Below are positions 30,327-46,164 of a stretch of DNA of 64,000 bases, piece by piece. The number at the start of each line of letters is the position of its first letter. Positions within the stretch are counted from its first letter, which is position 1. The stretch spans positions 1 to 64,000 of the forward strand of contig CADBEN010000001.1 of the NCBI GenBank assembly GCA_902793685.1. Direction: 5' to 3'. This stretch comes from an uncultured Lachnospiraceae bacterium. Its GTDB lineage: Bacteria > Bacillota > Clostridia > Lachnospirales > Lachnospiraceae. Made by a program: the position numbers and the translations under genes. The notes beneath the pieces were generated by a model that worked only from the letters and a program-made list of their open reading frames with translations, ran no database searches and was not told the origin of the DNA.

Positions 30327-30629
30327 AGTGAAGAAGCTCCTTTCAGTTATTCCTGTGATCTGCAGTTCCGGATTTTGTCCGGATATGTTTTTATTTTAAT
30401 ACGGGGGCAGAATTTTGAAAAGTATCCGGCATATTTTTATGCGGCGATTTAAGGGACGGCCGAGTCAGGGGACGGCCGGGTCAGGGGGCGGCAGGGTCAG
30501 GGGGAGAGGCAGAGGCGGGGGCGGGGACGATCATGTGGACAGACCGGAAGGGAAGGATTATAATAAGATTCACCCGTTTAAAGGGATACAGCCCTGAAGA
30601 CGGGACTTGATTTTTAAGAGGGAATGTAT
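30327..30629. other. Intergenic region with G-rich direct repeats
   Basis: This 300-bp gap between the divergent YtxH-like gene and the transporter holds three imperfect 17-bp direct repeats (GGGACGGCCGAGTCAGG type) at about 30452-30505, then a very G-rich run to 30527 with several GGG tracts that could fold as a G-quadruplex on the + strand. The transporter promoter follows. No gene is supported. Confidence 0.6.
30536..30564 (+). promoter_or_regulatory. Promoter for the sodium-coupled transporter
   Basis: TGGACA (30536-30541), 17-bp spacer, perfect TATAAT (30559-30564). Confidence 0.68.
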
Positions 30630-31994
30630 ATGAGAGAAAAGCTCGGATCGCGCCTCGGCTTTATCCTGCTGTCTGCGGGGTGCGCCATCGGAATAGGAAA
30701 TGTCTGGAGATTTCCTTATATCACTGGACTTTACGGCGGGGGCCTGTTTGTCCTGGTCTATCTTTTGTTCCTGGTGATCCTGGGGATCCCTGTCCTGACC
30801 ATGGAGTACGCTGTGGGACGCGCCAGCAGGGTCAGCATTTATCCGGCGTACCGGAAGCTTGAGCCGGCAGGAAGCAAATGGCATGTATTCGGATGGTTTG
30901 CCATGGCCGGAAACTATGTACTGCTCATGTTCTACTCGGTGGTCTCCGGCTGGATCCTGCATTATGCGGGAATGATGTTCTCCGGCAGACTGAGCAACGG
31001 GGACGCGGACTCGCTCTCCGCGGCCTTCGGAGAGATGATGTCGAGTCCCGGCATTCTGATCCGCTCCATGCTGATCGTCATGGTGATCACGGTGGTGGTG
31101 TGCGCGGCGGGGCTTCAGAACGGAGTCGAGCGGATCACGAAGGTCATGATGACGACACTCATCGTCCTGATGGTGATCCTCGGCGTCAACAGCATCATGC
31201 TTCCCGGCGGAGCGGAGGGCCTGAAATTCTATCTGATGCCGAATCCGGACAATTTCCGGGACCAGGGTATCGGGAACGTGGTATATGCGGCGCTGACCCA
31301 GAGCTTCTTTACTCTGAGCCTCGGCATGGGCGGCATGGAGATCTTCGGAAGCTATATCGGGAAGGACAAGAGTCTTGCGGGCGAGGCTGTCATCGTGGCA
31401 GCCCTGGACACCTTTGTCGCTATCGTGGCGGGCCTCATCATTTTCCCCGCCTGCTTTGCCTACGGGATCCCCGCGGACAGCGGCCCCGGACTGATCTTTG
31501 TCACTATCCCGAAGGTCTTCGACAACATGCCCCAGGGAAGACTGTGGGGGAGTCTGTTCTTTGTCTTCCTGTTCTTCGCGGCCCTTTCCACGATGATCGG
31601 CGTCTTCGAGAACATCATCAGCTTTTCTGTGGATCTCGCCGGCGCGGACCGGAAGAAGGCAGCGTTTATCAACGGCATCATCATTGCAGTCGGTTCGGTC
31701 CCCTGTGCCCTGGGCTTCAATGTGCTGAGCTTCATCGAACCGCTGAAGGCAGGAAACTGCATCATGGATCTGGAGGACTTCTATGTCAGCAACCTGGTGC
31801 TGCCCGTCGGTTCCTTCCTGATCGCCCTGTTCTGCACTTCGAAGTACGGCTGGGGCTTTGAAAACTATCTGAAGGAGGTCAATATCGGGGAAGGACTCAA
31901 GGTCTCCCCGGCACTCCGGTTCTATTTCAAGTACATCCTTCCGCTGATCACCGGTTTCCTGATCGTGTTCGGACTGTACAAGTATTTCGCGTAA
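30630..31994 (+). CDS. Sodium-dependent transporter, NSS/SNF family
   Basis: A 454-residue membrane protein with about 11-12 hydrophobic helices. The N-terminal GCAIGIGNVWRFPYITGLYG is the signature of neurotransmitter:sodium symporters (LeuT fold), where the unwound helix 1 binds Na+ and substrate. The likely substrate is an amino acid or an amine; it cannot be read from sequence. I choose ATG at 30630 with AAGAGGG seven bases upstream; the ATG at 30624 is too close. Followed by a terminator. Confidence 0.92.
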   Translation: MREKLGSRLGFILLSAGCAIGIGNVWRFPYITGLYGGGLFVLVYLLFLVILGIPVLTMEYAVGRASRVSIYPAYRKLEPAGSKWHVFGWFAMAGNYVLLMFYSVVSGWILHYAGMMFSGRLSNGDADSLSAAFGEMMSSPGILIRSMLIVMVITVVVCAAGLQNGVERITKVMMTTLIVLMVILGVNSIMLPGGAEGLKFYLMPNPDNFRDQGIGNVVYAALTQSFFTLSLGMGGMEIFGSYIGKDKSLAGEAVIVAALDTFVAIVAGLIIFPACFAYGIPADSGPGLIFVTIPKVFDNMPQGRLWGSLFFVFLFFAALSTMIGVFENIISFSVDLAGADRKKAAFINGIIIAVGSVPCALGFNVLSFIEPLKAGNCIMDLEDFYVSNLVLPVGSFLIALFCTSKYGWGFENYLKEVNIGEGLKVSPALRFYFKYILPLITGFLIVFGLYKYFA

Positions 31995-32129: not shown

Positions 32130-33056
32130 TCAGCTGGACTTTGCAGCGATCAGATCCTTGGAACGGCCGGCGCGGAGGATGTAGCTCTCCAGGCTGTGGC
32201 CGAGCATTCCCTTGAGATTCTTGGAGATCTCGATGATCTTCACGATGTCGATGCCGGTCTCGATGTTCTCCTCTTCGCAGAGATGAAGGACATCCTCGGT
32301 GGAGACGTTGCCTGCGGCACCCGGGACGAAGGGGCATCCGCCCAGACCGCCGAAGGAGCTGTCAAACTGGGTCATGCCGGCTGCCATTGCGGTGATGATG
32401 TTCGCCACCGCGAGGCCTCTGGTGTTGTGGAAGTGGAGCCACCAGGTGCACTGCGGATACTTCTCACGGACGTGAGAGCAGAGATCATAGACACCGTAGG
32501 GCGTCGCCATACCGGAAGCGTCGGAGAGGGAGATCTCGTTGATGCCGACATTCAGGTAGGCTTCGATGATCTCGTCCACATCGGAGACCGGGATCCGGCC
32601 TTCCCACGGGGAAGCGAAGGGCATGGAGATGGAACCGGAGATCTCGATCCCTGCAGCAGCTGCCGCATCGCAGGCCTCCTTGAAGCCGGCAACGCTCTCC
32701 GCAGGGGTACGGTTCAGGTTCTTGATGTTGTGCATCTTGCTGGCGGAAACATTCAGCTTGACCTTCTTGCAGCCGCAGGCAACAGCACGGTCGACGCCGC
32801 GCTTGTTCGGGATCAGCGCGCGGAGCTGGACGCCGGGGATCTCTCCGCCGATCGCCTTGAAGACATCGTCGGTGTTGGCCATCTGCGGGACCTTGACCGG
32901 ATGCATGAAGGAACCGACCTCAATAACCTTGAAACCGGCATCAACGAGACCGCGGAGGATCTCTACCTTCTGATCAGTGGTCAGGATGGTGGGCTCGTTC
33001 TGGAGTCCGTCGCGCAGGCCGACCTCGCAAAGAGTGATGGAAGACGGGTGGTTCAT
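32130..33056 (-). CDS. HMG-CoA lyase-like (HMGL family) carbon-carbon lyase
   Basis: A 308-residue TIM-barrel lyase. Family motifs are visible: EVGLRDGLQNEP near the N-terminus (catalytic Arg-Asp), LHFHNTRGLAVAN (metal-binding His-x-His) and the signature GGLGGCPFVPGAAGNVSTED with its catalytic cysteine. Relatives cleave 3-hydroxy-3-methylglutaryl-CoA to acetoacetate and acetyl-CoA, but the family also includes lyases for other 3-hydroxy-acyl-CoAs. AAGGAGG lies eight bases before the ATG. It is divergent from the isomerase-to-TRAP operon and probably belongs to the same pathway. Confidence 0.88.
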   Translation of the reverse strand: MNHPSSITLCEVGLRDGLQNEPTILTTDQKVEILRGLVDAGFKVIEVGSFMHPVKVPQMANTDDVFKAIGGEIPGVQLRALIPNKRGVDRAVACGCKKVKLNVSASKMHNIKNLNRTPAESVAGFKEACDAAAAAGIEISGSISMPFASPWEGRIPVSDVDEIIEAYLNVGINEISLSDASGMATPYGVYDLCSHVREKYPQCTWWLHFHNTRGLAVANIITAMAAGMTQFDSSFGGLGGCPFVPGAAGNVSTEDVLHLCEEENIETGIDIVKIIEISKNLKGMLGHSLESYILRAGRSKDLIAAKSS

Positions 33057-33304
33057 AGCTGTTTCCTCCTTAATTATGAATGGAATAGCAGATTCTGAAG
33101 ACTTTTCCGGCGGCTTTTCCGTCCGTACTATGCATTAAGTATAGTCTCGCGGACAGAGGATAATCCAATAGATTTTATCTATCCAATTGATGAAAAACAT
33201 ACATAATGCGGGGTTTGCGGGACGATGATGGGATACAAACGATGAATTATGAATAAAATTGATTATTCATGAACGGTTTCGATGGATATATGAAAAACTG
33301 CCAT

Positions 33305-33334
33305 TTGACGGTTGTGCATAATTTCAATTATGAT
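33305..33334 (+). promoter_or_regulatory. Promoter for the isomerase-TRAP operon
   Basis: TTGACG (33305-33310), 18-bp spacer, TATGAT (33329-33334). The inverted repeat at 33357-33381 sits just after the predicted start point. Confidence 0.6.
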
Positions 33335-33356
33335 TATGTCAGAAAAAATACGATTT

Positions 33357-33381
33357 GAACAATTTGCACATTGAATTGTTC
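33357..33381. promoter_or_regulatory. Inverted repeat, possible operator
   Basis: GAACAATT and AATTGTTC are perfect 8-bp arms with a 9-nt spacer. It lies downstream of the promoter, as expected for a repressor site or a leader hairpin. Confidence 0.55.
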
Positions 33382-33463
33382 CTGCAGAAATACAAGGCGT
33401 CCCGGATTCATAAAACTGTTTTCAAATTGCTGTGAAGATTCTCATCAATAAGGAGGAAAACCT

Positions 33464-34303
33464 ATGGCAAAGAAATTTTCCCTCGCATATCTGACCATTC
33501 CGGGTGTAAACCCGATGGATCAGATCCGGATCGCAAAAGAGTGCGGTTACGATTATGTAAGCCTCCGCACGATCCCGATGCATCTTCCGGGAGAGCCCGA
33601 GTTCCTGCTGGACAAGGATCCGGAACTGTTCGAGGCGACGAAAAAGGCACTGAAGGAATATGACATGCCGCTGATGGACATCGAGCTGGCGCGTGTCCGT
33701 CCGGATCTTGACATCGACGAGTATGAGCCGGCTTTCGAGAAGGCTGCAGAGCTCGGCGGAACCGACGTCCTGGGCAGCATCTGGACCAGAGACAAGGCTT
33801 TCTATATTGAGAAGGTCGGAAAGATCTGCGAGATGGCGAAGAAGTACGGCCTGAAGTACAATGTGGAGTTCCTTCCCTGGGCAGGCGTCCGAAACCTTCA
33901 GGAAGCCATCACCCTGGTCGATACCGTCGGCGCTGACAACCTTTACATCATGGTCGACACCCTTCACGCAGGACGCGCAGGCGTGACCGGCGCCGAGCTG
34001 GCCCGCACCCCCCGGAAGTACTTCAACTTCATCCATCTCTGCGACGGACCGGCCGGCCCGGACGGAGACGTTGTCCTGGACAACATCAAGGACGACCTGA
34101 TGCTCTACACCGCGAGAGAGGCCCGCTTCTATGTGGGCGAGGGAGATATCGACATCGCTTCCATGATCAAGGGCATGCCGGACATCCCGCTTTCCATCGA
34201 GCTTCCGCACCTTGCGCATATCAAGGAATTCGGCGTCCGGGGCCACGCTCAGAGATGCCTGGATACCGCGAAGGCTTACTTCAAGGCCAACGGAATCGAG
34301 TAA
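33464..34303 (+). CDS. Xylose isomerase-like TIM-barrel protein (sugar isomerase/epimerase or dehydratase)
   Basis: A 279-residue protein of the AP-endonuclease-2/xylose-isomerase-like fold. Candidate metal ligands fall in order: Glu in YNVEFLPWAG, Asp in IMVDTLHAGR, His in NFIHLCDGPAG and Glu in LSIELPHLAH. The same fold includes sugar epimerases and 3-dehydroshikimate dehydratases; the shikimate-dehydrogenase-like gene next door makes the latter attractive but unproven. AAGGAGG precedes the ATG. First gene of the operon. Confidence 0.82.
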   Translation: MAKKFSLAYLTIPGVNPMDQIRIAKECGYDYVSLRTIPMHLPGEPEFLLDKDPELFEATKKALKEYDMPLMDIELARVRPDLDIDEYEPAFEKAAELGGTDVLGSIWTRDKAFYIEKVGKICEMAKKYGLKYNVEFLPWAGVRNLQEAITLVDTVGADNLYIMVDTLHAGRAGVTGAELARTPRKYFNFIHLCDGPAGPDGDVVLDNIKDDLMLYTAREARFYVGEGDIDIASMIKGMPDIPLSIELPHLAHIKEFGVRGHAQRCLDTAKAYFKANGIE

Positions 34304-34352
34304 TTTCATTTTTGGTTCTTAACGGGGATTTGACGGGAATTCCCGCTGGAAT

Positions 34353-35249
34353 ATGCAGCTGAAAAAATATCAGAGGAGGAAGGTTGCGTTTATGAATGTC
34401 AATATCGATACCAAATTCATCACGCTGCTCGGAGATCCGCTTCGCCAGTCCTTTGCTGCTAGAATGCAGAATAAGGGTTACGAGGCCGCAGGGCTCAACA
34501 TGCTCTATTTCTACACTGAGACCGGCAACGAGCACCTCGGCGACATCGTCAACGGACTTCGTTACATGAACTTCGCAGGGTTCGCGGTAACGAAGCCGAA
34601 CAAGATCGAGGTCCTGAAGTATCTTGATGAGCTGGATCCGCTGTGCGAGAAGATGGGCTCCAGCAACACTGTTGTCAAGACTCCTGAAGGAAAGCTGAAG
34701 GGCTACAATACGGACGGCGTCGGATTCTACACTTCCATCACGGAAGAGGGCGGGATCAAGGCGAGCGAGTGCGTGTTCTTCTGCTTCGGTGCCGGCGGTG
34801 CAGGCCGCGCGATGTGCTCAGTTCTGGCTTACTACGGCGCACGCAAGATCTACATCACCGACTTCTATCCGGAGTTCGCACAGTCCCTGGTCGATGACAT
34901 CAACAAGAACTTCGCTCCGGTCGCGGAATTTGTCCCGAAGGGTGATTTCTCCAAGATCGCTGCCTGCGATGTCGTCCTGAACGCCAGCGGAATCGGCATG
35001 GGATCCCACATCGGCGAGAGCCCGATGCCGAAGGAAGAGATGAAGGCCAGCCAGCTGTACTTCGATGCCTGCTACAATCCGGCCAAGACCCAGTTCCTGC
35101 TGGATGCGGAAGCCTGCGGCGCAAAGATCCTCAACGGTCTCGGCATGTCCCTGTATCAGGGCGCGGCTCAGATCGAGCTCTGGACCGGCGGCAAGGCACC
35201 GGTGGAAGCGATGAGACAGGAGCTTCTAGACATCATCGCCGGAAAGTAA
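34353..35249 (+). CDS. Shikimate/quinate dehydrogenase-like oxidoreductase
   Basis: A 298-residue protein of the AroE/YdiB fold. Visible are a modified substrate loop (GDPLRQSFAARMQNKG in place of the usual SxSxxxHN), the catalytic lysine in FAVTKPNKIEV, GSSNTVV, GYNTDGVGF, the nucleotide-binding FGAGGAGRAM, and NASGIGMGS with YQGAAQIELW. An Asp after the second strand (ITDFYPE) suggests NAD over NADP. The location in a transport operon and the altered substrate loop point to a catabolic role, not to aromatic amino acid synthesis. The start may instead be the in-frame ATG at 34392. Confidence 0.82.
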   Translation: MQLKKYQRRKVAFMNVNIDTKFITLLGDPLRQSFAARMQNKGYEAAGLNMLYFYTETGNEHLGDIVNGLRYMNFAGFAVTKPNKIEVLKYLDELDPLCEKMGSSNTVVKTPEGKLKGYNTDGVGFYTSITEEGGIKASECVFFCFGAGGAGRAMCSVLAYYGARKIYITDFYPEFAQSLVDDINKNFAPVAEFVPKGDFSKIAACDVVLNASGIGMGSHIGESPMPKEEMKASQLYFDACYNPAKTQFLLDAEACGAKILNGLGMSLYQGAAQIELWTGGKAPVEAMRQELLDIIAGK

Positions 35250-35286
35250 AACTGCAGATATTCAAGAACCTTTAAGGAGGCTGTCT

Positions 35287-35844
35287 ATGATTAAATGGTT
35301 GGATGAGCATATGGAGGAGACCTTCCTGGTCGTCTGCCTCGTCCTCATCGCCTGCATCAGTATGATCCAGGTCGTCGTACGTAAAGTGCCGTTCCTGTCA
35401 TCCCTGCAGTGGGCGGAAGAGTTTGACCGTTTCATGTGGATCTGGTCCGTTTTCATTTCCCTGCCCTATACCATCCGGATGGGCAACATGCTTCGCGTTA
35501 ACGTCCTTCTGGACCTTATGCCCCATGTCATGAGAAAGACCGTGAGCCTTTTCGTCGACGTTGTCGTCATGCTTTCCATGGCCCTTCTCTGCTACCACTC
35601 CTACGGCGTCATCTTCGGGCCGAAGGGTATCATGTCTTCCGGAGAGCTTTCTCCCGCAATGAGATGGCCCATGTGGATCGTTTATCTGTTCATGCTGATC
35701 GGATTCGGACTCGGAACGTTCCGCGGCATCCAGATGATCATCATCCACGCGAAACACTTCAATGAGAAAGAGCTTACCGCGATCGAGCAGACCATGAAGG
35801 ATGCCGAAGAGGAAGCTAAGGCTGTGAAAGGAGGAGAAGCATAA
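35287..35844 (+). CDS. TRAP transporter small permease (DctQ-like)
   Basis: A 185-residue membrane protein with four predicted helices (about 10-30, 50-68, 88-108 and 128-150) and the typical WAEEFDRFMWIWSVFISLPY motif of DctQ subunits. It pairs with the large permease encoded immediately downstream. AAGGAGG precedes the ATG. The stop overlaps the DctM start (TAATG). Confidence 0.92.
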   Translation: MIKWLDEHMEETFLVVCLVLIACISMIQVVVRKVPFLSSLQWAEEFDRFMWIWSVFISLPYTIRMGNMLRVNVLLDLMPHVMRKTVSLFVDVVVMLSMALLCYHSYGVIFGPKGIMSSGELSPAMRWPMWIVYLFMLIGFGLGTFRGIQMIIIHAKHFNEKELTAIEQTMKDAEEEAKAVKGGEA

Positions 35845-37139
35845 TGGCTGCGATGATGGTTTTTGTGGTCTTCCTGGTCGGAATTGCTTTATCCATCCCG
35901 ATCGGCGTGTCCATGATCCTCGGTTCTGTTGCTCCGATCATGCTGCTGGGTAAGGGCGGCACCATTGTTCAGCTGCTGAACAACACCTTCTCCGGCGCAA
36001 ACTCCACCCCGATCCTTGCGGTCCCGCTGTTCATTCTCGGCGGTGTCATCATGGCTGAGGGCGGTATCTCCAAGAAGCTGTTCAACTTCTTCGCATACTT
36101 CGTCGGAAGATTCCCGGGCGGCGTCCCCTGTGCAGTCATCATGACCTGCCTGTTCTACGGCGCGATCTCCGGTTCCGGCCCCGCAACGACTGCAGCAGTC
36201 GGCGCGATGTGCATCCCGTTCATGGTCAGCCTCGGATATGACAAGGTGTGGTCCGCAGGTCTGATCTCGGTCGCAGGCGGTCTCGGCGTTATCATCCCGC
36301 CGTCCATCCCCTTCGTCCTGTATTCCCTGGCCACCGGCGTTTCCACCGGCGCCCTGTTCCTCGCAGGTATCATCCCGGGCATCCTGATCGGCGGCTTCAT
36401 GATGATCTACGCTGTCTTCTACTGCATCACCAAGGGTGAGGACAGAAACCTGATCAAGGCGAAGATGAATGAGCTTTCCGTCAACGGCTTCGGCGCCCTG
36501 TTCAGGGATTCCTTCTGGGCTCTGCTCTGCCCGATCATCGTCCTCGGCGGTATCTACGCAGGCTTCGTTACCCCGACTGAGGCAGCTACGGTCTCCGTGT
36601 TCTACGCGGTCATCGTTTCCCTGTTCATCTACAAGTCCATCCAGTTCAACGACATGTACCGGTTCCTGTGCGCGGCGGTCAAGACCTACGGCGGTCTGGC
36701 ATTCGTCCTTGCGTTCGCGACCGCGTTCGGCCGCGTGCTGTCCCTGACTAAGGCTACCAAGGTGGTCCAGGACTTCATCCTCGGAAACTTCCACACCAGC
36801 TTTACGGTCCTTACCGTCTGCGTCGTCGTGTTCCTGATCCTGGGCATGGTCATGGATACCGGCCCCGCCATCATCATCCTGGCTCCGGTGCTTCTGCCGG
36901 CAGTTATGGGCCTCGGCGTCGATGATGTCCACTTCGGTGTTATTCTGGTCTGCTGCCTGTCCATCGGTCTGGCAACCCCGCCGTTTGGTCTGGATATGTT
37001 CGTCGCAGGAAACCTGGCGCAGTGCCCGCCAATGGATGTCGCGAAGAAATCCGTGCCCTTCATTGTGGCCTTCCTGATTGCCCTGGCGATGATCGTCTAT
37101 ATCCCGGCAGTCAGCCTTGCGCTGCTCGGCCGCGTCTGA
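35844..37139 (+). CDS. TRAP transporter large permease (DctM-like)
   Basis: A 431-residue membrane protein with about 12 helices. DctM features include the conserved PIPLFILGG-like ILAVPLFILGG, FYGAISGSGPATTAAVGAM, GLGVIIPPSIPFVLYSLATG and FVTPTEAATVSVFYA. It couples uptake of an organic acid to a sodium or proton gradient. It overlaps the small permease by one base. Confidence 0.95.
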   Translation: MAAMMVFVVFLVGIALSIPIGVSMILGSVAPIMLLGKGGTIVQLLNNTFSGANSTPILAVPLFILGGVIMAEGGISKKLFNFFAYFVGRFPGGVPCAVIMTCLFYGAISGSGPATTAAVGAMCIPFMVSLGYDKVWSAGLISVAGGLGVIIPPSIPFVLYSLATGVSTGALFLAGIIPGILIGGFMMIYAVFYCITKGEDRNLIKAKMNELSVNGFGALFRDSFWALLCPIIVLGGIYAGFVTPTEAATVSVFYAVIVSLFIYKSIQFNDMYRFLCAAVKTYGGLAFVLAFATAFGRVLSLTKATKVVQDFILGNFHTSFTVLTVCVVVFLILGMVMDTGPAIIILAPVLLPAVMGLGVDDVHFGVILVCCLSIGLATPPFGLDMFVAGNLAQCPPMDVAKKSVPFIVAFLIALAMIVYIPAVSLALLGRV

Positions 37140-37322
37140 ACGTGACAGAAGAGTGTGCCTTATAAGGGCGCGTTCTTCATAAAGGATTCAAAATTGTTTC
37201 CGGTGTTTTTCCTTGCGAAGCTCTGCCGGAGAAGCTAAAGTGGTTTGCACGGGGACCCGGCGCTGCCGGGCCCCCGGGGAAACATATTTTTCATCATTTT
37301 CTTAATCAGAGGAGGAAAAGTA

Positions 37323-38441
37323 ATGAAACTCAACAAAATCGTAGCTCTGACACTTGCAGGCGTTATGGCAGCATCCCTTGCAGCTTGCGGCGGCAGCAAG
37401 CCGGCTGAGACCACCGCAGCGGCAGCTCCGGCAGCAACCGAAGCAGCAGCTCCGGCAGCAACCGAAGCAGCAGCTCCGGCAGCCAGCGGTGACTATTCCG
37501 CACTTGACGACGTGGAACTGATCCTTGCGGATACTTCTTCCAACGGCGCAGCTCTTCAGCAGTTCAACGAGGCTCTGGCAAAGAACGTTGACGCTATCAC
37601 CGGCGGAAAGCTGACCCTGGACTATCACGGCAACGGCGACCTCGGCGGCGACGCTGACCTGATCCGTCAGACCCAGTCCGGCGACATCGACATTGTCGGT
37701 TCCCAGATCGCTCCGCTGGTCTCCTTCGTTCCGGAGATGGCAATCTTCGACCTTCCGATGGTTTTCGCAAAGTATGACGGCGCGAAGATCGACTCTGTCC
37801 TGAACGGCGACAGCGAGACCCACAAGGCGATCGTTGCAGCTTATGAGGCTGCCGGCCTTCATCCGCTTGGCTTCCTGCAGAACGCAACCTATCGTCTGAC
37901 CACCTCCAACACCGAGCTTAAGGACCTTGCTTCCTTCAAGGGCCTGAAGATCAGAACCATGGAGAACGCGAACCACATGGCATTCTGGAGCGCGATCGGC
38001 GCAGAGCCCACCCCGCTTGCATGGGGCGAAGTCTACATCTCCCTGCAGAACGGAACCATCGACGCAGAAGAGAACGCAGCTGATACAGTTGCCGGCGCAA
38101 ACTTACAGGAAGTCCAGAAGTATCTTGCATTCACGAACCACATCCTGTACTGCAACCAGCTTGCAATCAACAAGGATAAGTGGGAATCCCTTGATCCGGC
38201 TTACCAGGCTGCTCTTGAAGAGGCTATGGCTATGACTCTGGCTGACATGGGCGCAAAGCTGAAGGATATCGATTCTTCCAACAAGAAGGCGCTGGAAGAG
38301 AAGGGCATGACCATGATCGAGTATCCGGATTCCTTCTATGATGAGATCCTTGCACTTGACGGTGTCAAGGCTCTGTATGCAGAGATCGACAGCAAGGTCG
38401 GCGGACTTGGAACCACCCTTCAGGAAGAGCTGGCGAAGTAA
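37323..38441 (+). CDS. TRAP transporter substrate-binding lipoprotein (DctP-like)
   Basis: A 372-residue lipoprotein: signal with lipobox LAAC (Cys22), an Ala/Pro/Glu/Thr linker with three near-identical EAAAPAAT copies (about 30-55), then a DctP domain. The segment KGLKIRTMENANHMAFW holds the arginine that clamps the substrate carboxylate in TRAP binding proteins, followed by LAWGEVYISLQNGTIDAEEN. The substrate is therefore probably an organic acid. I choose ATG at 37323 with GAGGAGG upstream. It lies 183 bp after the large permease, so it may be expressed at a higher level from processed mRNA. Confidence 0.93.
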   Translation: MKLNKIVALTLAGVMAASLAACGGSKPAETTAAAAPAATEAAAPAATEAAAPAASGDYSALDDVELILADTSSNGAALQQFNEALAKNVDAITGGKLTLDYHGNGDLGGDADLIRQTQSGDIDIVGSQIAPLVSFVPEMAIFDLPMVFAKYDGAKIDSVLNGDSETHKAIVAAYEAAGLHPLGFLQNATYRLTTSNTELKDLASFKGLKIRTMENANHMAFWSAIGAEPTPLAWGEVYISLQNGTIDAEENAADTVAGANLQEVQKYLAFTNHILYCNQLAINKDKWESLDPAYQAALEEAMAMTLADMGAKLKDIDSSNKKALEEKGMTMIEYPDSFYDEILALDGVKALYAEIDSKVGGLGTTLQEELAK

Positions 38442-38456
38442 TATCAGCCTTACACG

Positions 38457-38492
38457 GACGGTGAAGGCCACAGTGCCTTCACCGTCTTTTAA
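38457..38492 (+). terminator. Terminator after the binding-protein gene
   Basis: GACGGTGAAGG and CCTTCACCGTC form an 11-bp stem followed by TTTT. Read-through into the next genes is possible. Confidence 0.85.
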
Positions 38493-38513
38493 AAAAGACA
38501 GACTGGAGATGCA

Positions 38514-39401
38514 ATGGATACCGCGCGGCAGACAAAGGCCTACGGGCTGATCTTCATTACCTTCTTTATCTGGGGCAGCGTCTATGTCGCAGGGGGGATC
38601 GCGGGAAACGGCATGCCGTCTTTCCTGGTCGCAAGTCTGCGGTGCCTGATCTCCATGATCCCGCTCTGGCTGATGTCGGCGAAGTATTTCCCGATCAGGA
38701 TCGAGCGGGAAGACATGAAGTATTTTTTCATGATCGGTTTTCTAGGTTATTTTGTAACGATCCAGTCGATCCAGCTGGGCATCCTGCTGACGGGCTCCAG
38801 CATGGCGTCCCTGATCAATGCACTGACGCCGGTGGCTGTCACGATCCTGGCGGCACTGATCCTGAAAGAACGGATCACTCCGGTGAAGATCCTTTGTCTG
38901 ATACTGGCGCTGGCAGGGACCTTCGTCATTACGTCGGGTGCCTCGACCCAGGGGGAACTCCTCGGTGTCCTGGCAGTTCTGACGGGAGTCATTTCTTTCG
39001 GGACTGCGTCTGTCCTGATGCGGAAGGTCACTGCGAAGTACCCTCCGGTGGTCGTGACGACAGTCTCCATGACGCTGAGCCTGATCTTCAACATTCCGGT
39101 GGCGGTCGCAAGCGCACTGACGCAGCCGGTCCATCCGAATGCGGCCGGCATCATTGCACTTCTTTATCTCGGATTCGTGGGATCGGGCCTGGGACAGGTC
39201 ACCTGGACCAGAGCGCTTTCCATACTTCCGGCAAGCACCTGTTCTCTGTTTTATCCCCTGCAGCCGCTGTTTTCCGCACTGCTCGGCGCACTGCTGCTGC
39301 ATGAAACCTTCAAACCTGCGTTTTTTGCGGGACTGATCCTGATTTCACTGGATGTAGTACTTAACACCCTGGAGACAAGAAGACAGGCAGAGGGGAAATG
39401 A
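38514..39401 (+). CDS. EamA/DMT-family permease
   Basis: A 295-residue drug/metabolite transporter with ten predicted helices in two EamA halves (about 8-140 and 150-290). Markers are FITFFIWGSVYVAGG at the start and ALTPVAVTILAALILKERIT at the end of the first half. It may export or import a metabolite of the pathway. GGAGATGCA precedes the ATG. Its stop overlaps the LysR gene start as ATGA, so the two are coupled. Confidence 0.88.
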   Translation: MDTARQTKAYGLIFITFFIWGSVYVAGGIAGNGMPSFLVASLRCLISMIPLWLMSAKYFPIRIEREDMKYFFMIGFLGYFVTIQSIQLGILLTGSSMASLINALTPVAVTILAALILKERITPVKILCLILALAGTFVITSGASTQGELLGVLAVLTGVISFGTASVLMRKVTAKYPPVVVTTVSMTLSLIFNIPVAVASALTQPVHPNAAGIIALLYLGFVGSGLGQVTWTRALSILPASTCSLFYPLQPLFSALLGALLLHETFKPAFFAGLILISLDVVLNTLETRRQAEGK

Positions 39402-40309
39402 ATCTACAGTGGTTATACTATTTTGATACGATCGCGGAACTGGAGCATTACACCAAGGCGGCGGAAAAGCTGCATGTGAGCCAGTCGAACCTGAGCCATG
39501 CCATCAAGGAGCTGGAGAACGAGGTCGGTGCGGAGCTGTTTGAGAGGAAGGGAAGAAATATCAAGCTGTCGAAGTACGGCGAGATTTTTCTTCCGTATGT
39601 CAGACAGACACTGAACTCCCTGGAGACCGGAGTGTCAACGCTCAAGGAATACATCGATCCGAATATCGGAACGATCGTCCTTGCGGGGTTTCAGTCGCTG
39701 GGACAGTTTTCAACAGACCTGATGGTAAGGTATCAGTCGGAAACGAACCGTCTGGACGTTCAGTTTCAGTACAGTTCGGAAATCTGGAACCGTCTTTCAG
39801 ATATGCTTCACACGGGAGAGATCGATCTCGCGCTGGCTACGAGAATGGACGGCGACTGGGTGGGCGCGGATTTCATCGGCGTGCACCGTCTCGTCCTGCT
39901 GGCACCGAAGGGGCATTCCCTGGCCTCGGAAAACGGTGTTCAGCTGAAGGATCTTGACGGGATCAATTTTATCGGGTTTGACAGTACAAGCCAGATCCGG
40001 TCACAGCTGGACCGCGTATTCCGTTCCAGAAACATCTTTCCCAACATTGCTGCAGAGACGCAGAATGACCAGATCGTATATGGTCTTGTGGCGGCAGGCC
40101 GCGGGGTATCGATCGTTCCGGAACCGCTTACGGGAGCTCCGTACAATACTGTGATCGTCCCGATCCGCGACAATATTCCGGAGCGCCGGATCTACCTGCA
40201 ATGGAACCGGAACCGGTACATGTCTCCGGCAGCAAAGTATTTCCGCGACTACATCGTGAGAAGCGGGGATGTTTTTGATCAGTATCGAAAACAGCACAAC
40301 CTGATCTGA
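39398..40309 (+). CDS. LysR-family transcriptional regulator 1
   Basis: A 303-residue regulator. The N-terminal winged helix reads LQWLYYFDTIAELEHYTKAA followed by SQSNLSHAIKELENEVGAEL, and the C-terminal effector domain (about 90-295) has the periplasmic-binding fold. Translationally coupled to the EamA permease and followed by the ThDP enzyme gene. It probably senses a pathway metabolite and acts on the AT-rich region at 33057-33463 or on its own operon. Confidence 0.92.
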   Translation: MNLQWLYYFDTIAELEHYTKAAEKLHVSQSNLSHAIKELENEVGAELFERKGRNIKLSKYGEIFLPYVRQTLNSLETGVSTLKEYIDPNIGTIVLAGFQSLGQFSTDLMVRYQSETNRLDVQFQYSSEIWNRLSDMLHTGEIDLALATRMDGDWVGADFIGVHRLVLLAPKGHSLASENGVQLKDLDGINFIGFDSTSQIRSQLDRVFRSRNIFPNIAAETQNDQIVYGLVAAGRGVSIVPEPLTGAPYNTVIVPIRDNIPERRIYLQWNRNRYMSPAAKYFRDYIVRSGDVFDQYRKQHNLI

Positions 40310-40373
40310 TTTATGACCGGCCTGGGCCGGATTGTAAATAGAAACCATTATTTTAGAAGTAGGAGGGATTTCC

Positions 40374-42212
40374 ATGGCAAAGAAACTTGTTGCTGAATTG
40401 ATGGTGGAGTACCTTGAGCGCCGCGGCGTAGAGTACGTTTTCGGCCTTTGCGGACATACCGTCATCGCAATGCTGGACGCAATGTCCCGCGCGAAGACTC
40501 TGAAGTATATCTCCAACCGCCACGAGGCTGTTGCCTCCACCGCAGCTGATGGCTATGCACGCGTAACCAATAAGGCTTCTGTCGTTATGTGTCACCTCGG
40601 CCCCGGCATCACCAACGTGCTGACCGGTGTCGCAAACGCTGCTTTCGACTCCATCCCGATGGTCGTCATTGCCGGCGATGTCCCGAGTTACTATTATGGC
40701 AAGCACCCGCACCAGGAAGTCAATATGCACGGGGACGCTACCCAGTACAAGTTCCTTGAGCCGGTCTGCAAGAGAGTCTGGAGACTTGACGATGTCGAGG
40801 CTCTTCCGGAGATCATGGACAAGGCATTCCGTCTGGCAGAGTCCGGCCGTCCGGGCCCGGTCCTGATCGACATCCCGATGGATCAGTTCTCCCGCGAGCA
40901 GGAAGAGTATCTCTGGGAGCGCACCAAGCACGACTCACACATCACCTGCAAGCCGGCGCTTGATCCGGCAGCTGCGAAGGCGATCGCTGAGAAGCTTGTC
41001 AACGCAAAGCACCCGATGCTTCACGCCGGCGGCGGAATCATCCTTGCACAGGCATCCGATGAGCTGGCTGCACTGGCTGAGTTCCTTGACATCCCGGTTT
41101 CCCGTACGCTGATGGGCCAGGGCTGCATCTCCGATACCCACCCGCTGCTGGTCGGCCAGACCGGTTTCTGGGGCCTGGAGTTCACCCACTCCCTGACCAA
41201 CAATGCTGACGTCATCCTCGGCCTCGGCACCCGTTTCGCAGAGGCTGACAGCTCCTCCTGGTACCAGGGCGTGACCTTCACCCCGGCGAACACCGAGTTC
41301 CTTCAGATCGACATTGAGCCGTCCGAGATCGGCCGCAACTATCCGGTGGCCATCGGCGCAGTCGGCGACCTCAAGATCGGCCTGCGGCAGATCCTTGAGG
41401 AAGTGAAGAAGATCTGCCCGGAGGGCAAGAAGAATCCGGAGCTCCGCGCAGCGATCGCGAAGGCAAAGGCAGACTTCAAGAAGTCCAACGAAGCCATCTC
41501 CAATGACAGCCGCTTCCCGATGACTCCGCAGCGCATCCTGAAGGATGTCAAGGAAGTCATTCCGGAAGATGCTCACATCTTTACCGATGTCGGCTGGAAC
41601 AAGAACGGTGTTGCTCAGGAATTCGACGTCACTGTCCCGGGCACCATCCATCATTCCTCCGGTCTTGCGACCATGGGCTTCGGTGCATCCGCAGTCCTCG
41701 GCGGCAAGGTCGCTGCTCCGGACAAGATCTGCATCGCTCTGATCGGCGACGGCGGCTTCGGCGTCAACCCGACCTGCCTTGCAACTGCTGTTGAGCAGGG
41801 CATCGCATGCACCTGGATCGTCATGAACAACTCCGCATTCGGAACCATCGCAGGCCTTGAGAATGCTAACTATGGCACGACCTTCGGCACGAAGTTCCAT
41901 ACGCCGGACGGCAAGACCTACAGCCCGAGCTGGGCAGGCGTCGCAGAAGCTTACGGCGTTGACGCAATCTGCGTCAAGAGCGCTGACGAGTTCAAGCCGG
42001 CTCTTGAGAAGGCTATGGAAGCCAACAAGGCAGGCAAGCCGTTCCTGGTCGAAGCTCCGATGGAGAACATCGTTGTCCCGACCCCGGGCTGCTGGAACAT
42101 CAACGATATCTACAGCCCGAACGAGCTGGTCAAGCAGGGCAAGCTGGTCCAGAACGAATATGGCCAGTTCGTCGCTCCGAGCCACAGCAAGTCCCACAAG
42201 GCACCGAACTGA
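40374..42212 (+). CDS. Thiamine diphosphate-dependent enzyme, acetolactate synthase-like
   Basis: A 612-residue ThDP enzyme with the three-domain layout: N-terminal pyrimidine-binding domain with the conserved glutamate in SNRHEAVASTAADGYAR, a central domain (about 190-335) and the diphosphate-binding domain with GDGGFGVNPTCLATAVEQG and NN (the GDG...NN metal motif, about 458-485). It resembles uncharacterised acetolactate-synthase-like proteins carrying YYYGKHPHQEVN. Likely reactions are 2-keto acid decarboxylation, carboligation or 2-hydroxyacyl-CoA cleavage. The codon choice is strongly biased, like groEL and rpsA, suggesting high expression. AGGAGGG precedes the ATG. Confidence 0.88.
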   Translation: MAKKLVAELMVEYLERRGVEYVFGLCGHTVIAMLDAMSRAKTLKYISNRHEAVASTAADGYARVTNKASVVMCHLGPGITNVLTGVANAAFDSIPMVVIAGDVPSYYYGKHPHQEVNMHGDATQYKFLEPVCKRVWRLDDVEALPEIMDKAFRLAESGRPGPVLIDIPMDQFSREQEEYLWERTKHDSHITCKPALDPAAAKAIAEKLVNAKHPMLHAGGGIILAQASDELAALAEFLDIPVSRTLMGQGCISDTHPLLVGQTGFWGLEFTHSLTNNADVILGLGTRFAEADSSSWYQGVTFTPANTEFLQIDIEPSEIGRNYPVAIGAVGDLKIGLRQILEEVKKICPEGKKNPELRAAIAKAKADFKKSNEAISNDSRFPMTPQRILKDVKEVIPEDAHIFTDVGWNKNGVAQEFDVTVPGTIHHSSGLATMGFGASAVLGGKVAAPDKICIALIGDGGFGVNPTCLATAVEQGIACTWIVMNNSAFGTIAGLENANYGTTFGTKFHTPDGKTYSPSWAGVAEAYGVDAICVKSADEFKPALEKAMEANKAGKPFLVEAPMENIVVPTPGCWNINDIYSPNELVKQGKLVQNEYGQFVAPSHSKSHKAPN

Positions 42213-42249
42213 TCGAAGCTGAACATCCTGTCATTCCTTAATTAAGAAA

Positions 42250-42304
42250 GGGGGCTGCCGCATTAAGGTAATTGTCTTTGAAAGACCTTATTGCGGCAGC
42301 CCCC
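42250..42304. terminator. Long hairpin, terminator after the ThDP gene
   Basis: GGGGGCTGCCGC...AAGGT pairs with ACCTT...GCGGCAGCCCCC. It is convergent between the ThDP gene and the LysR gene. The better T-run is on the - strand. Confidence 0.75.
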
Positions 42305-42329
42305 TGTTCAGTTATCAGGGCAAAATAAG

Positions 42330-42365
42330 ATCCGGGAAACGGCCGGGTCAGGCCGTTTCCCGGAT
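42330..42365 (-). terminator. Terminator of LysR gene 2
   Basis: A perfect 15-bp stem (ATCCGGGAAACGGCC and its complement) with a 6-nt loop. On the - strand it is followed by CTTATTTTG. Confidence 0.82.
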
Positions 42366-42384
42366 GTTCTGTAGTATGCAGGTT

Positions 42385-43281
42385 TCAGCCGGGAGAAGAT
42401 GAGGCAAATTCCCGGACGATCAGGTTCCGGACCTGCTGGGCCGGCGGCGTAAGCGGGCGGGAACGGTCCCAGGAAAGATAGACCGTGCGGACAAATTCCC
42501 GTGCCTCGTCCGCGATCGGGATCGCACAGACGCGTTCGGTCTTCATTGCAGGGACGTCCGGCAGGATGGCGACGCCGAATTTCAGGGCGACGTACTGCAG
42601 GGCGGCGTTGCACTCCCGGACTTCAAAGACAACGTTCGGAATGACACCCCGGCGGGTGAAGATCCGGTCGGTCAGCATCCGCAGGCTGCTGGGTTTGTCC
42701 AGCATGATCATCGGCTCCCGCGCGAAATCATCGAATTCCACGGAGTGGCGTTTGGCCAGCGGGTGTTCGAAGGGAACGGCGAGATAGAGGGGCTGTTTCA
42801 TGATCGTAATGGAATCCGCCCAGTCGTCCCGATGCGCACAGAAAGCAAGGTCCAGTTCCCCGCGCTTCAGCTGGTTGAAGATATCAAAGGAAGTTCCTTC
42901 GGTGAACTGAAAGCGGATCCTGCTCGTATCGGAACCGTGATAGACTTTTTCCACCAGGGCGGGGATCAGAGAAGCGGAGATCGAATGGAAATAGCCGAGC
43001 TTCACGGACATCTGGGCAGTGCCGGAGATCTGCTTCAGCATTCCGGTCCCCTCATCAAGGAGATTCAGGGATTTCTGGACATAAGGAAGAAAGCGCTCCC
43101 CGGATTCCGTCAGGGTTATCTTCCGGTTCTTTTTGGTAAAGAGTTTTACGTCCAGTTCTTTTTCCAGTTCCCGGATCGAGTAGCTGAGCGTCGGCTGTGA
43201 GATATGCAGTTCTTCCGCAGCGTGTGTATAGTGCAGAACACGGGCAAGAACGGAAAAGTATTGAAGCTGCAGTAATGTCAT
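42385..43281 (-). CDS. LysR-family transcriptional regulator 2
   Basis: A 298-residue regulator. The winged helix reads LLQLQYFSVLARVLHYTHAA followed by SQPTLSYSIRELEKELDVKL; the effector domain (about 90-290) follows. It is transcribed away from the aldehyde dehydrogenase gene, the classical divergent layout for a LysR activator and its target. AAAGGAG precedes the ATG. Confidence 0.93.
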   Translation of the reverse strand: MTLLQLQYFSVLARVLHYTHAAEELHISQPTLSYSIRELEKELDVKLFTKKNRKITLTESGERFLPYVQKSLNLLDEGTGMLKQISGTAQMSVKLGYFHSISASLIPALVEKVYHGSDTSRIRFQFTEGTSFDIFNQLKRGELDLAFCAHRDDWADSITIMKQPLYLAVPFEHPLAKRHSVEFDDFAREPMIMLDKPSSLRMLTDRIFTRRGVIPNVVFEVRECNAALQYVALKFGVAILPDVPAMKTERVCAIPIADEAREFVRTVYLSWDRSRPLTPPAQQVRNLIVREFASSSPG

Positions 43282-43638
43282 GGCAAACTCCTTTCAACAG
43301 TGAGGAAAGTATATCATAAAACTGATGTATTTTGCTTGTTAAATGGTGTAATTTGCTCTTGTTTGGACAAAATGCACTGAATTTTAGGACGCAACGTCCA
43401 ATATTTAGAGTTTGCCCGGAGTGTTTGCATGACCGACTGTCAGATTTTGCGTATTATAGATGGTTTCTATCATCATTACAAAAACAACAAATTGGACTTG
43501 CTTATTTTGCCCTGATATAATCAGCTCAGAAACAAGCAATACAGAAACAGGCATCGAAAAAAGCATCACAAAAAGCATCATTGATACAGGCAACAGGTAA
43601 CAGGTTAAAAAAATCTTTAAAAAAAGGAGAACACTGTT
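43282..43638. promoter_or_regulatory. Divergent control region between LysR 2 and the aldehyde dehydrogenase
   Basis: A 357-bp gap. Two direct repeats, TGTATTTTGCTTGTT (43326-43340) and TGTAATTTGCTCTTG (43347-43361), lie exactly 21 bp apart, two helical turns, and a related TTATTTTGC is at 43502-43510 inside the promoter spacer. The leader just before the gene is rich in short AGCATCA/CAGGCA-type direct repeats (about 43545-43606). Confidence 0.6.
43492..43521 (+). promoter_or_regulatory. Promoter for the acylating aldehyde dehydrogenase
   Basis: TTGGAC (43492-43497), 18-bp spacer, perfect TATAAT (43516-43521). Confidence 0.68.
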
Positions 43639-45075
43639 ATGGCACATGAAGTCACCCAGGAAGAGATCCAGATGATCGAAGAGATGGTAGCACGCGCCCG
43701 CGTTGCTGCTGATGTCATCGCTACCTATGATCAGGCTCGTGTTGATAAGCTGATCCAGGCCGTTGGCGCTGCTGTCGTCAACATGAAGGTCTGGGCTCCG
43801 ATCTGCGACGAGGCAGTTGATGAGACCGCTCTCGGCGATAAGGTCACCAAGAGAAACAAGAGAAACAAGATCAAGCTGATCCTCAGAGACTGCCTGCGCG
43901 CTAAGAGTGTCGGCATCATCGAGGAGATCCCGGAGAAGAACATCGTTAAGTATGCGAAGCCGGTCGGCGTCATCGCTTCCCTGGTTCCGACGACCAACCC
44001 GTGCCTTACCCCGGCTGGCCAGATCCTGTACGCGATCAAGGCTCGTGACGTCATCATCTGCAGCCCGCATCCGCGTGCAAAGAACACCACCAACAAGTGC
44101 ATCAACATCATCCGTGAAGTCCTTGTCCGTGAGGGCGCTCCGGCTGACATCATCCAGGGCATCGAGAAGCCGTCCATCGCTCTTACCGCTGAGCTGATGA
44201 AGAGAGCTGACCTGATCATCGCTACCGGCGGACGGCCGATGGTCAAGGCTGCTTACTCCCAGGGTGTCCCGGCTTATGGTTCCGGCGCAGGAAACGCTAC
44301 CGTCATCATCGACGATACCTGCAATACTCCGGAGTATCAGGCTGAGGCTGCTGAGAACACCAGAATTTCCAAGACTTCCGACTTCGGTTCCGGATGCTCC
44401 TGCGATGGAAACCTGGTTATCCACGAGTCCATCTATGACGCTTTCGTTGAGCAGCTGAAGGCTCACGGCGGCTACCTCTGCAACGATGAAGAAGCTGAGA
44501 AGGTCAAGAAGGTCATGTGGGATGAGACCGGACATCGTCTTCCGAACACCGTCGCTATCAGCCCGCAGAAGCTTGCTCTGACCGCCGGCTTCGAGGTCTC
44601 CGATGATGTCAAGTTCCTGATGGTCACCGGCGGCGGCTTTGACGAGATCGGCAAGGAGTTCTTCTTCTCCACCGAGAAGCTGACCACCATGCTGGCTCTG
44701 TTCAAGTACAAGGGCGAGTTCCAGAACGCCATCGACATGGTCCTGAAGATCTTCAACGTCGGCGGCAAGGGCCACAGCTGCGGTATCTACAGCTGGGATG
44801 ACAGCCACATCCATCGCCTTGCAATGGTCGCTCCGGTTTCCCGTATGATGGTCCGTCAGCCGAACAACCGCGGCAACTCCGGTTCCGCATGGAACGGCAT
44901 GCCGCCGACGTCCTCCATGGGCTGCGGCACCTGGGGCGGAAACATTGTCTCCGAGAACATCAGCCTGAAGCACTACATGAACACCACCTGGGTTTCCCGT
45001 CCGCTTCCGTATGATATGCCGTCCAACGAGGAGCTCTTCGGTGAGTTCGCTGTCGAGGGCATGGACGAGGAATAA
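43639..45075 (+). CDS. CoA-acylating aldehyde dehydrogenase
   Basis: A 478-residue enzyme of the acylating aldehyde dehydrogenase family (AdhE N-terminal half, EutE and sulfoacetaldehyde dehydrogenase relatives), which oxidises an aldehyde to acyl-CoA with NAD(P). PVGVIASLVPTTNPCLTP is the cofactor region; the catalytic Cys is in FGSGCSCDGN (about residue 253-255), where AdhE-type enzymes usually have an ICASEQ-like motif; SSMGCGTWGGNIVSEN is the C-terminal signature. The changed active-site motif suggests a substrate other than acetaldehyde. AAGGAGA precedes the ATG. Codon bias resembles groEL. Likely under LysR 2 control. Confidence 0.9.
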   Translation: MAHEVTQEEIQMIEEMVARARVAADVIATYDQARVDKLIQAVGAAVVNMKVWAPICDEAVDETALGDKVTKRNKRNKIKLILRDCLRAKSVGIIEEIPEKNIVKYAKPVGVIASLVPTTNPCLTPAGQILYAIKARDVIICSPHPRAKNTTNKCINIIREVLVREGAPADIIQGIEKPSIALTAELMKRADLIIATGGRPMVKAAYSQGVPAYGSGAGNATVIIDDTCNTPEYQAEAAENTRISKTSDFGSGCSCDGNLVIHESIYDAFVEQLKAHGGYLCNDEEAEKVKKVMWDETGHRLPNTVAISPQKLALTAGFEVSDDVKFLMVTGGGFDEIGKEFFFSTEKLTTMLALFKYKGEFQNAIDMVLKIFNVGGKGHSCGIYSWDDSHIHRLAMVAPVSRMMVRQPNNRGNSGSAWNGMPPTSSMGCGTWGGNIVSENISLKHYMNTTWVSRPLPYDMPSNEELFGEFAVEGMDEE

Positions 45076-45188: not shown

Positions 45189-45351
45189 ATCGTTGGCGGA
45201 GAAGACTGTCTCTGCGATTCGGCAAGGCGGAAGGAACCGTGCGGGACGAAAGACCGCGTCACGGAAAAATGCCGCGAATGAATGCGCGGATGTACTCCGG
45301 CAGGGATAAAGGGCAGGATGGCTGCACTATTAAAGGAAAAGGAGAATGATC

Positions 45352-46164
45352 ATGCAGCAGTTTGGCGGAAGCAAGGATTATATTGCGTCGGAGGAACTGA
45401 TCCGGAGCGTCAACATTGCGGCGGCACTTCAGAAGCCGCTGCTGGTGAAGGGAGAACCCGGCACCGGCAAGACCATGCTGGCGGAATCCATCGCCGATTC
45501 CCTGGGAATGGAACTGATCATCTGGAACATAAAGTCTACGACGAAGGCCCAGGACGGCCTGTACGTCTATGACACCGTCCAGCGTCTTTACGACAGCCAG
45601 TTCGGAGAGCACAGCGTGGACGATATTTCCCGCTATATCAAACTCGGAAAGCTGGGCATTGCCTTCACGAAGGAGAAGCAGGCTGTGCTTCTGATCGACG
45701 AGATCGACAAGGCGGACCTGGAGTTCCCGAACGACCTGCTCTGGGAGCTTGATCAGATGGAATTTTACATTCCGGAGACCGGAGAGACCATCAAGGCAAA
45801 GCAGCGCCCCATCGTGATCATCACATCCAACGCGGAGAAGGAACTGCCGGACGCCTTCCTGCGCCGCTGCATTTTCCACTATATCGCTTTCCCGGATCAG
45901 GAGATGATGGCCCGCATCGTCCGCGCCCATTATCCTGATCTGGAGCAGAATCTGCTGGATGCCTGCCTGAGCGCGTTCTACAGGCTCCGCAGCCTTGCGG
46001 GAATCACGAAGAAGCCGGCGACCAGCGAGCTTCTGGACTGGATCCAGGCGCTGATCATCGGCGGTGTTTCCGAGGATGAACTGAAGGAGAAGCTGCCCTT
46101 CATCGGCGTACTGCTGAAGAAGACGGAAGACCTGACTCTGGCCGCGAAAGAACACGTTTACTGA
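45352..46164 (+). CDS. MoxR-type AAA+ ATPase
   Basis: A 270-residue AAA+ protein with Walker A GEPGTGKTMLAES (about 38-50), Walker B VLLIDEIDKADLEF and sensor region IVIITSNAEKELPDAFLRR. MoxR ATPases act as chaperones for assembling or activating metalloenzymes or surface complexes, usually with a VWA partner, and that partner is encoded 14 nt downstream. I choose ATG at 45352 because GGAG lies about seven bases upstream; the ATG at 45346 is too close. Confidence 0.92.
   Translation: MQQFGGSKDYIASEELIRSVNIAAALQKPLLVKGEPGTGKTMLAESIADSLGMELIIWNIKSTTKAQDGLYVYDTVQRLYDSQFGEHSVDDISRYIKLGKLGIAFTKEKQAVLLIDEIDKADLEFPNDLLWELDQMEFYIPETGETIKAKQRPIVIITSNAEKELPDAFLRRCIFHYIAFPDQEMMARIVRAHYPDLEQNLLDACLSAFYRLRSLAGITKKPATSELLDWIQALIIGGVSEDELKEKLPFIGVLLKKTEDLTLAAKEHVY

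Follow-up and report, generated by a model that had tools for sequence, protein, structure and literature searches.

The stretch of DNA analysed here, 64,000 nucleotides of an uncultured Lachnospiraceae bacterium (contig CADBEN010000001.1 of assembly GCA_902793685.1, hereafter the window), carries at positions 32130-45075 the genes for five enzymes and a tripartite ATP-independent periplasmic (TRAP) transporter that very likely serve one pathway. The enzymes are a member of the 3-hydroxy-3-methylglutaryl-CoA (HMG-CoA) lyase family (HMGL), a xylose-isomerase-like barrel protein (XI), a shikimate-dehydrogenase-like protein (AroE-like), a thiamine diphosphate-dependent enzyme (ThDP enzyme) and a CoA-acylating aldehyde dehydrogenase (ALDH), and in many gut bacteria the genes of this set adjoin each other or are co-inherited. 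The substrate is likely to be hydroaromatic, and we propose, with a probability of about 0.5, that the locus encodes an oxygen-independent route for quinate (or shikimate), each step of which is inferred, in which the ring is opened by the ThDP enzyme and the reactions follow the order given below. An earlier note on this DNA had listed these genes as contiguous, together with an EamA-family permease and two LysR-type regulators, and all of them were found there with clear family matches in profile searches; it had also assigned them to a single pathway equipped with a TRAP transporter of its own, a view with which the neighbourhood and co-inheritance counts agree.

Conservation and co-inheritance of the gene set

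The surroundings of the ThDP gene were compared in 82 loci, comprising the best 80 of 117 obtained with the ThDP protein as query (one genome per species), the window, and a paralogue locus of the window's own genome (L007), with genes called and clustered by script. Because many of these loci are short contigs or begin near a contig end, the counts are lower bounds. The most frequent companion is ALDH (60 loci), followed by XI (40), LysR regulators (38), HMGL (32), the AroE-like enzyme (31) and the TRAP solute-binding protein DctP (26), with EamA (14), a Gfo/Idh/MocA dehydrogenase (11), the type I 3-dehydroquinate dehydratase AroD (9) and a PrpB-like lyase (6) being less common. All four other enzymes stand beside the ThDP gene in 19 of the 82 loci, and at least three do so in 33; the titles of the complete loci include Oscillospiraceae, Lachnospiraceae, Acidaminococcus and Synergistales. 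In 36 cases ALDH directly adjoins the ThDP gene on the same strand. Gene order varies between lineages, so the linkage is not merely inherited synteny. For the Synergistales, the AroE, XI, HMGL and DctQMP genes form a second operon on a different contig from the ThDP-ALDH pair in all three genomes opened (L111, L112 and L113).

The comparison across relatives that the earlier note had called for thus finds the genes staying together, both in these complete loci and in their distribution among genomes. Fifty of the 80 fetched loci make up the ThDP-bearing set, which spans 49 genomes; XI (E up to 1e-30) and HMGL (E up to 1e-50) were each found in 46 of these, and the same three genomes have neither. 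The ThDP gene occurs in only four of 195 relatives of the window's genome, a count that includes this genome itself. Three of the four, and none of the remaining 191, have XI with at least 89% identity; the 191 yield a single match at 38%. HMGL with at least 67% identity is present in the same three and again in none of the 191, five of which have matches at 35-44%. The corresponding Fisher p values for co-occurrence with the ThDP gene, uncorrected for kinship, are ~1e-5 for XI and ~3e-6 for HMGL. The fourth ThDP-bearing relative (G141) has the AroE-like gene and a contig-cut piece of HMGL on its ThDP contig and no XI match. HMGL, ThDP, ALDH and XI lie within ~6 kb in G059, and in G001 (82% complete) the AroE-like, DctQ, DctM and HMGL genes share one contig and XI lies on another, the ThDP gene of this genome being of the paralogue type (76%).

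The second ThDP copy of the window's genome (L007, G000:C24) is 76% identical to the first and has as neighbours a split transketolase and an Asp/Glu-racemase-like protein; no second acylating ALDH match was found in this genome. Six of ten transketolase-linked loci (L007, L029, L036, L044, L054 and L088) form, with L057, one clade with a support of 0.99, and since the transketolase-linked set accompanies XI, ALDH and AroD in L036, it may branch off the same metabolism. Other surroundings of the ThDP gene were also observed. A lyase of the PrpB/PEP-mutase family lies directly beside it in six of the 82 loci (L009, L010, L012, L013, L016 and L017), and L031 and L035, in whose genomes neither XI nor HMGL was matched, show a ThDP-family gene in a different conserved neighbourhood, perhaps reflecting another use of the enzyme. 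Genes resembling oligopeptide-type ABC transporters, recognized by reading, lie near the cluster in L068, L071 and L073, and AroA adjoins AroE in the first two.

A predicted route from quinate to fermentation acids

Plant food and forage contain chlorogenic and related acids, from which quinate is set free. The earlier note had named quinate or shikimate, or another hydroxy acid, as possible substrates, and of these quinate/shikimate has been raised from a candidate to the leading substrate by the presence of AroD in related clusters. The conserved catalytic motifs of AroD are present in all nine clustered copies, and the only one of the nine that was scored (L071) reaches 248.3 against a cut-off of 139.3 for TIGR01093. 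AroD is also found between XI and HMGL, inside the second operon, in L112 (Fretibacterium; PF01487, 202.6 against 22.2). A second, canonical AroE, with the motifs HSQSP and TMPHK, lies upstream of the main enzymes in L072, where it adjoins AroD, and in L077, where it is one gene away from it; the AroE-like protein of the main operon is the variant in both. Since shikimate, 3-dehydroshikimate and 3-dehydroquinate are interconverted by AroD and AroE, 3-dehydroquinate is most likely an intermediate of the pathway, and quinate would be the substrate of the variant AroE-like enzyme.

In the proposed route, quinate (or shikimate) would be imported by the TRAP transporter, and the AroE-like enzyme would oxidize quinate to 3-dehydroquinate, with a ketone at C3. 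XI would then dehydrate 3-dehydroquinate, taking the C4 proton and the C5 hydroxyl, to 1-hydroxy-3,4-dioxocyclohexane-1-carboxylate; the same alpha/beta elimination is the chemistry of 3-dehydroshikimate dehydratase and of IolE, and the product would be a dione and not an aromatic compound because 3-dehydroquinate retains the tertiary alcohol at C1. Hydrolytic cleavage of the C3-C4 bond by the ThDP enzyme would turn C3 into an aldehyde and C4 into a carboxylate, a ring-dione cleavage that is the chemistry of cyclohexane-1,2-dione hydrolase (CDH) and IolD. The acylating ALDH would convert the aldehyde to homocitryl-CoA, and HMGL would split the latter beside the tertiary alcohol into acetyl-CoA and 2-oxoglutarate, an ending that we put forward tentatively. 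Shikimate would enter via AroE and the clustered AroD of relatives, and 2-oxoglutarate could be turned into butyrate by the hydroxyglutarate route in the window's genome. The whole would amount to a redox-neutral, O2-independent fermentation of quinate to acetate, butyrate and CO2 by an inositol-like ring opening and a previously unknown homocitryl-CoA lyase of the HMG-CoA lyase family, to which we give somewhat less than an even chance. By hand arithmetic, quinate (C7H12O6) equals acetate, butyrate and CO2 with an exact atom balance, and the two dehydrogenases of the route yield two NADH, as many as 2-hydroxyglutarate dehydrogenase and the reduction of crotonyl-CoA consume.

HMGL passes the HMG-CoA lyase model NF004283 (303 against a cut-off of 246 bits), its catalytic residues R15, D16, E46, H208, H210 and C241 are invariant in 32 of 32 sequences, and alignment to human and bacterial HMG-CoA lyases places its loop motifs GSF and HNTRG as in 6nds. 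XI matches PF01261 (71.5 against 31.1 bits), its Glu-Asp-His-Glu metal ligands are invariant in 30 of 30 sequences, and the characterized folds nearest to its structure model are IolI and 5hmq. Its only NCBIfam match is QuiC (NF042435), a model of 635 positions, at 20.1 against a cut-off of 1200. A search with the XI protein gave 741 matches at E up to 1e-40, for which only generic names ('sugar phosphate isomerase/epimerase', 'TIM barrel protein') appear, in 6 of 120 listed. The AroE-like protein scores below the cut-offs for shikimate dehydrogenase (TIGR00507, 173.5 against 200.2; NF001319, 188.6 against 252) and keeps K84, N105, D121 and Q269, the catalytic Lys K84 being present in 34 of 34 sequences and the Asp D121 in all 33 that cover it. 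QSFAARMQN and VTKPNK replace the canonical HSxSP and VTxPHK, and the SxS carboxylate motif is incomplete, with S33 kept and Ala in place of the second Ser, both in the protein of the window and in 27 of 33 sequences; Lys stands at position 81 in 32 of 34.

Residues H28, E51, H74 and Q114 of the ThDP enzyme are invariant in 27 of 27 sequences. The Gly-His at residue 28 is common to five IolD proteins and absent from three acetolactate-synthase-like proteins, in a comparison that left out the row ALSlike_L108 (wrong frame). H28 is also named in a PDB title as a mutated residue of CDH, its equivalence to H28 of the ThDP enzyme resting on equal numbering and that title, and the five alignments listed (ThDP N-terminal query; IolD query) include no residue-level alignment with CDH. 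The fold of the ThDP enzyme aligns to CDH (2pgn/4d5e/4d5g) over 553-555 residues at 25% identity, a match with which many ThDP enzymes tie. Assignment of the enzyme to a curated family was rejected for IolD (TIGR04377, 236.1 against a cut-off of 715 bits), acetolactate synthase (TIGR00118, 384.1 against 538.35) and the sulfoacetaldehyde acetyltransferase Xsc (TIGR03457, 276 against 676.4), and ALDH was likewise rejected as the acylating sulfoacetaldehyde dehydrogenase SauS (NF047625, 412.6 against 600). Cys253 of ALDH is present in all 57 of the 60 sequences that cover it.

The window's genome holds, at L094, one cluster with hydroxyglutarate-pathway content, namely a pair of CoA-transferase subunits, the beta subunit of a Na+-pumping decarboxylase (483.8 bits against a cut-off of 190.6), a dehydratase activase (279.5 against 125.4) and an HgdA/B-like pair of 2-hydroxyacyl-CoA dehydratase subunits, which lie above the PF06050 cut-off and below those of the isocaproyl-specific models. 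A carboxyltransferase-like protein (158 bits, below cut-off) and, by reading, a biotin-carrier-like protein are also present, and a hydroxyglutarate role is predicted for the dehydratase and carboxyltransferase subunits. HgdA with at least 74% identity occurs in 19 of the 49 ThDP-bearing genomes (17 of the 46 with XI and HMGL), against 8 of the 191 relatives that have no ThDP gene (Fisher p 2e-9, confounded by kinship). Some of the HgdA matches are confined to the final 300 residues, G215 and G218, which belong to the 19, have neither XI nor HMGL, and among the four ThDP-bearing relatives HgdA is found in the window's own genome and not in G001, G059 or G141; for these reasons, and because of kinship, we count the co-occurrence as weak support. 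With HgdA in only 19 of 49 genomes and one of four relatives, other fates of 2-oxoglutarate must exist.

Weighing the alternatives

Several observations weigh against the quinate route: the AroE-like and XI proteins are divergent, the ThDP enzyme stands at least as close to other ThDP enzymes as to ring hydrolases, and a close hydroxyglutarate dehydratase is missing from 30 of the 49 ThDP-bearing genomes. The same five enzymes might instead act on another cyclitol or on a branched hydroxy acid, the AroE-like enzyme and XI having been recruited and respecialized and AroD, in some loci, serving a side branch. Such a substrate would fit the altered carboxylate site of the AroE-like protein (QSFAARMQN, VTKPNK), the XI fold, whose nearest characterized relative IolI is an inositol enzyme, and the Gfo/Idh/MocA dehydrogenase of 11 loci, which weakly resembles levoglucosan (94 of 650 bits) and inositol dehydrogenases (86 of 355 bits), as well as the occurrence of AroD in only nine of the 82 loci. 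Nevertheless, AroD has conserved motifs in all nine and lies within the operon in several lineages, and in L072 and L077 the cluster is flanked by canonical AroE together with AroD, and we regard this alternative as a serious one that is nonetheless rather unlikely.

The earlier note had proposed a linear order. Under it, a 2-keto acid would lose CO2 at the ThDP enzyme, ALDH would form the acyl-CoA and HMGL would cleave it, and no ring would be opened. The ThDP scaffold is an ordinary one whose fold fits keto-acid decarboxylases as well as CDH, and the direct same-strand pairing of ALDH with the ThDP gene in 36 cases would suit this order; XI, the AroE-like enzyme and AroD would be left without a clear role despite their linkage or co-inheritance. 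It is thus not the simplest reading, and although no analysis here separates the two, a ring-opening role for the ThDP enzyme is preferred because it gives all five enzymes a place, and we consider the linear order improbable. It is still less probable that XI is a 3-dehydroshikimate dehydratase of a classical, aerobic-type quinate route to protocatechuate with the other genes as unrelated neighbours: its fold match to 5hmq and its sole NCBIfam match, a weak one to QuiC (20 bits), would agree with that, but 46 of 49 genomes, and three of the four ThDP-bearing relatives, carry XI together with the ThDP enzyme and HMGL, and no aromatic-degradation gene was found among the neighbour clusters annotated, a subset of the total. 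A sulfonate pathway, with ALDH as SauS and the ThDP enzyme as an Xsc-like acetyltransferase, is the least credible of these explanations. For ALDH, SauS is indeed the curated family with the highest score (412.6 bits), and Xsc is among the matches of the ThDP enzyme; both fall below cut-off (412.6 against 600 and 276 against 676), and the AroE-like enzyme, XI, HMGL and AroD would be unexplained.

Layout of the locus and comparison with known systems

The genes of the locus are contiguous (Table 1) and divided between the strands, with HMGL and LysR 2 on the minus strand and all others on the plus strand, leaving divergent promoter gaps of 407 bases (HMGL/XI) and 357 bases (LysR 2/ALDH); the locus is thus a set of adjoining genes and not a single operon. 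For DctP, the open reading frame (ORF) finder gives a TTG at 37245, which is probably too early a start, and the ATG at 37323 opens a lipoprotein-like leader.

Table 1. Genes of the locus and the accessory pair that follows it (positions in the window).
Gene product	Position	Strand	Family match or remark
HMGL, HMG-CoA-lyase-family enzyme	32130-33056	-	PF00682 173 bits; NF004283 303 bits
XI, xylose-isomerase-like TIM barrel	33464-34303	+	PF01261
AroE-like dehydrogenase, variant subfamily	34353-35249	+	PF08501, PF18317
DctQ, TRAP small membrane subunit	35287-35844	+	PF04290
DctM, TRAP large membrane subunit	35844-37139	+	PF06808; TIGR00786 353 bits, above cut-off
DctP, TRAP solute-binding lipoprotein	37323-38441	+	PF03480; start picked by reading
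EamA-family permease	38514-39401	+	PF00892
LysR-type regulator 1	39398-40309	+	same sequence cluster as LysR 2
ThDP-dependent enzyme	40374-42212	+	PF02776/PF00205/PF02775
LysR-type regulator 2	42385-43281	-	PF03466, PF00126
CoA-acylating aldehyde dehydrogenase (ALDH)	43639-45075	+	nearest curated family SauS, below cut-off
AAA+ ATPase, accessory	45346-46164	+	PF00004/PF07728; MoxR-type label given by reading
CoxE-like VWA protein, accessory	46179-47414	+	PF05762

Codon adaptation, calculated with groEL/groES as reference (the 0.777 of groEL itself is therefore circular), is highest for ALDH (0.771), DctP (0.739) and the ThDP gene (0.725), lies at 0.59-0.66 for HMGL, XI and the AroE-like gene, and reaches only 0.39-0.43 for EamA and both LysR genes, bearing out the earlier claim that the ThDP and dehydrogenase genes resemble groEL in codon bias, as is typical of abundant proteins. 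A perfect 8-6-8 palindrome at 33249-33270, inside the divergent HMGL/XI promoter region, is a candidate LysR operator. A looser palindrome pattern was not enriched (4 found against 2.1 expected from shuffles), and in the search for a shared operator no palindrome as good as this one was found upstream of ALDH. Strong inverted repeats at 38457-38486, past DctP, and at 42249-42368, past the ThDP gene, are likely terminators or processing signals.

The AAA+ and CoxE-like VWA pair, which by reading of the ORFs is followed by groES and groEL, lies beside the cluster in 9 of the 82 loci, from several genera, and is possibly a chaperone or metal-insertion helper. On the other side, a transporter of the sodium:neurotransmitter symporter family (30624-31994) is situated immediately outside the cluster, and its sequence cluster recurs in 3 of the 82 loci.

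The fermentation of hydroaromatic compounds has been described at the level of organisms: quinic and shikimic acids are the only substrates fermented by one lineage of Fusobacteriaceae according to PMC10512730 (citing Brune et al., 2002), and Ilyobacter insuetus and Propionivibrio limicola are hydroaromatic-compound specialists as far as reference titles tell. Literature searches found no enzyme or gene for this fermentation, be it for the lineage or for the two species. A rumen paper predicts, in the part available, only a conversion of quinate to chorismate (PMC10054779). In agreement with the earlier note, which knew of no described pathway with exactly this set, searches of a literature in which few subscription papers were covered found neither a description of the gene set nor a ring-opening pathway for quinate.

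If the proposed route is correct, it would explain genetically how hydroaromatic compounds are fermented in gut Clostridia, Acidaminococcus and Synergistota, where the ring of quinate would be opened without oxygen and turned into ordinary fermentation acids, and it would give a role to proteins known in databases only as 'sugar phosphate isomerase/epimerase' or 'TIM barrel protein'. Two reactions are predicted, the conversion of 3-dehydroquinate to a 1,2-dione and the cleavage of homocitryl-CoA, and we know of no enzyme for either. The five-enzyme candidate has cultured hosts, which makes the question directly testable; [Clostridium] aminophilum DSM 10710 (L017) and Lutispora thermophila DSM 19022 (L078) are examples that carry the complete cluster.

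Among known systems, the proposed logic resembles the catabolism of myo-inositol (iol: IolG, IolE/IolI and IolD), in which a ring alcohol is oxidized, a barrel protein of the XI type produces a 1,2-dione and a ThDP enzyme opens the ring; the XI fold is near IolI, and the ThDP enzyme has Gly-His at residue 28 as in IolD. Unlike the iol system, the dehydrogenase of the locus is AroE-like and not of the Gfo/Idh type, the ThDP enzyme is not IolD, and an acylating ALDH and an HMGL-family lyase follow. CDH is likewise a ThDP enzyme of the same fold that opens a ring 1,2-dione to an aldehyde acid, although the identity is only 25% and the fold match ties with other ThDP enzymes. With the route from quinate and shikimate to protocatechuate (QuiA/QsuD, QuiB and QuiC) the locus shares the dehydrogenase family, an XI-like barrel and, in some loci, dehydroquinate dehydratase, whereas the ThDP enzyme, acylating ALDH and HMGL are added here and both an aromatic intermediate and oxygen are predicted to be avoided. 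Compared with HMG-CoA lyase, finally, HMGL keeps a score above cut-off, the catalytic residues and the loop, and would differ only by its predicted substrate, homocitryl-CoA.

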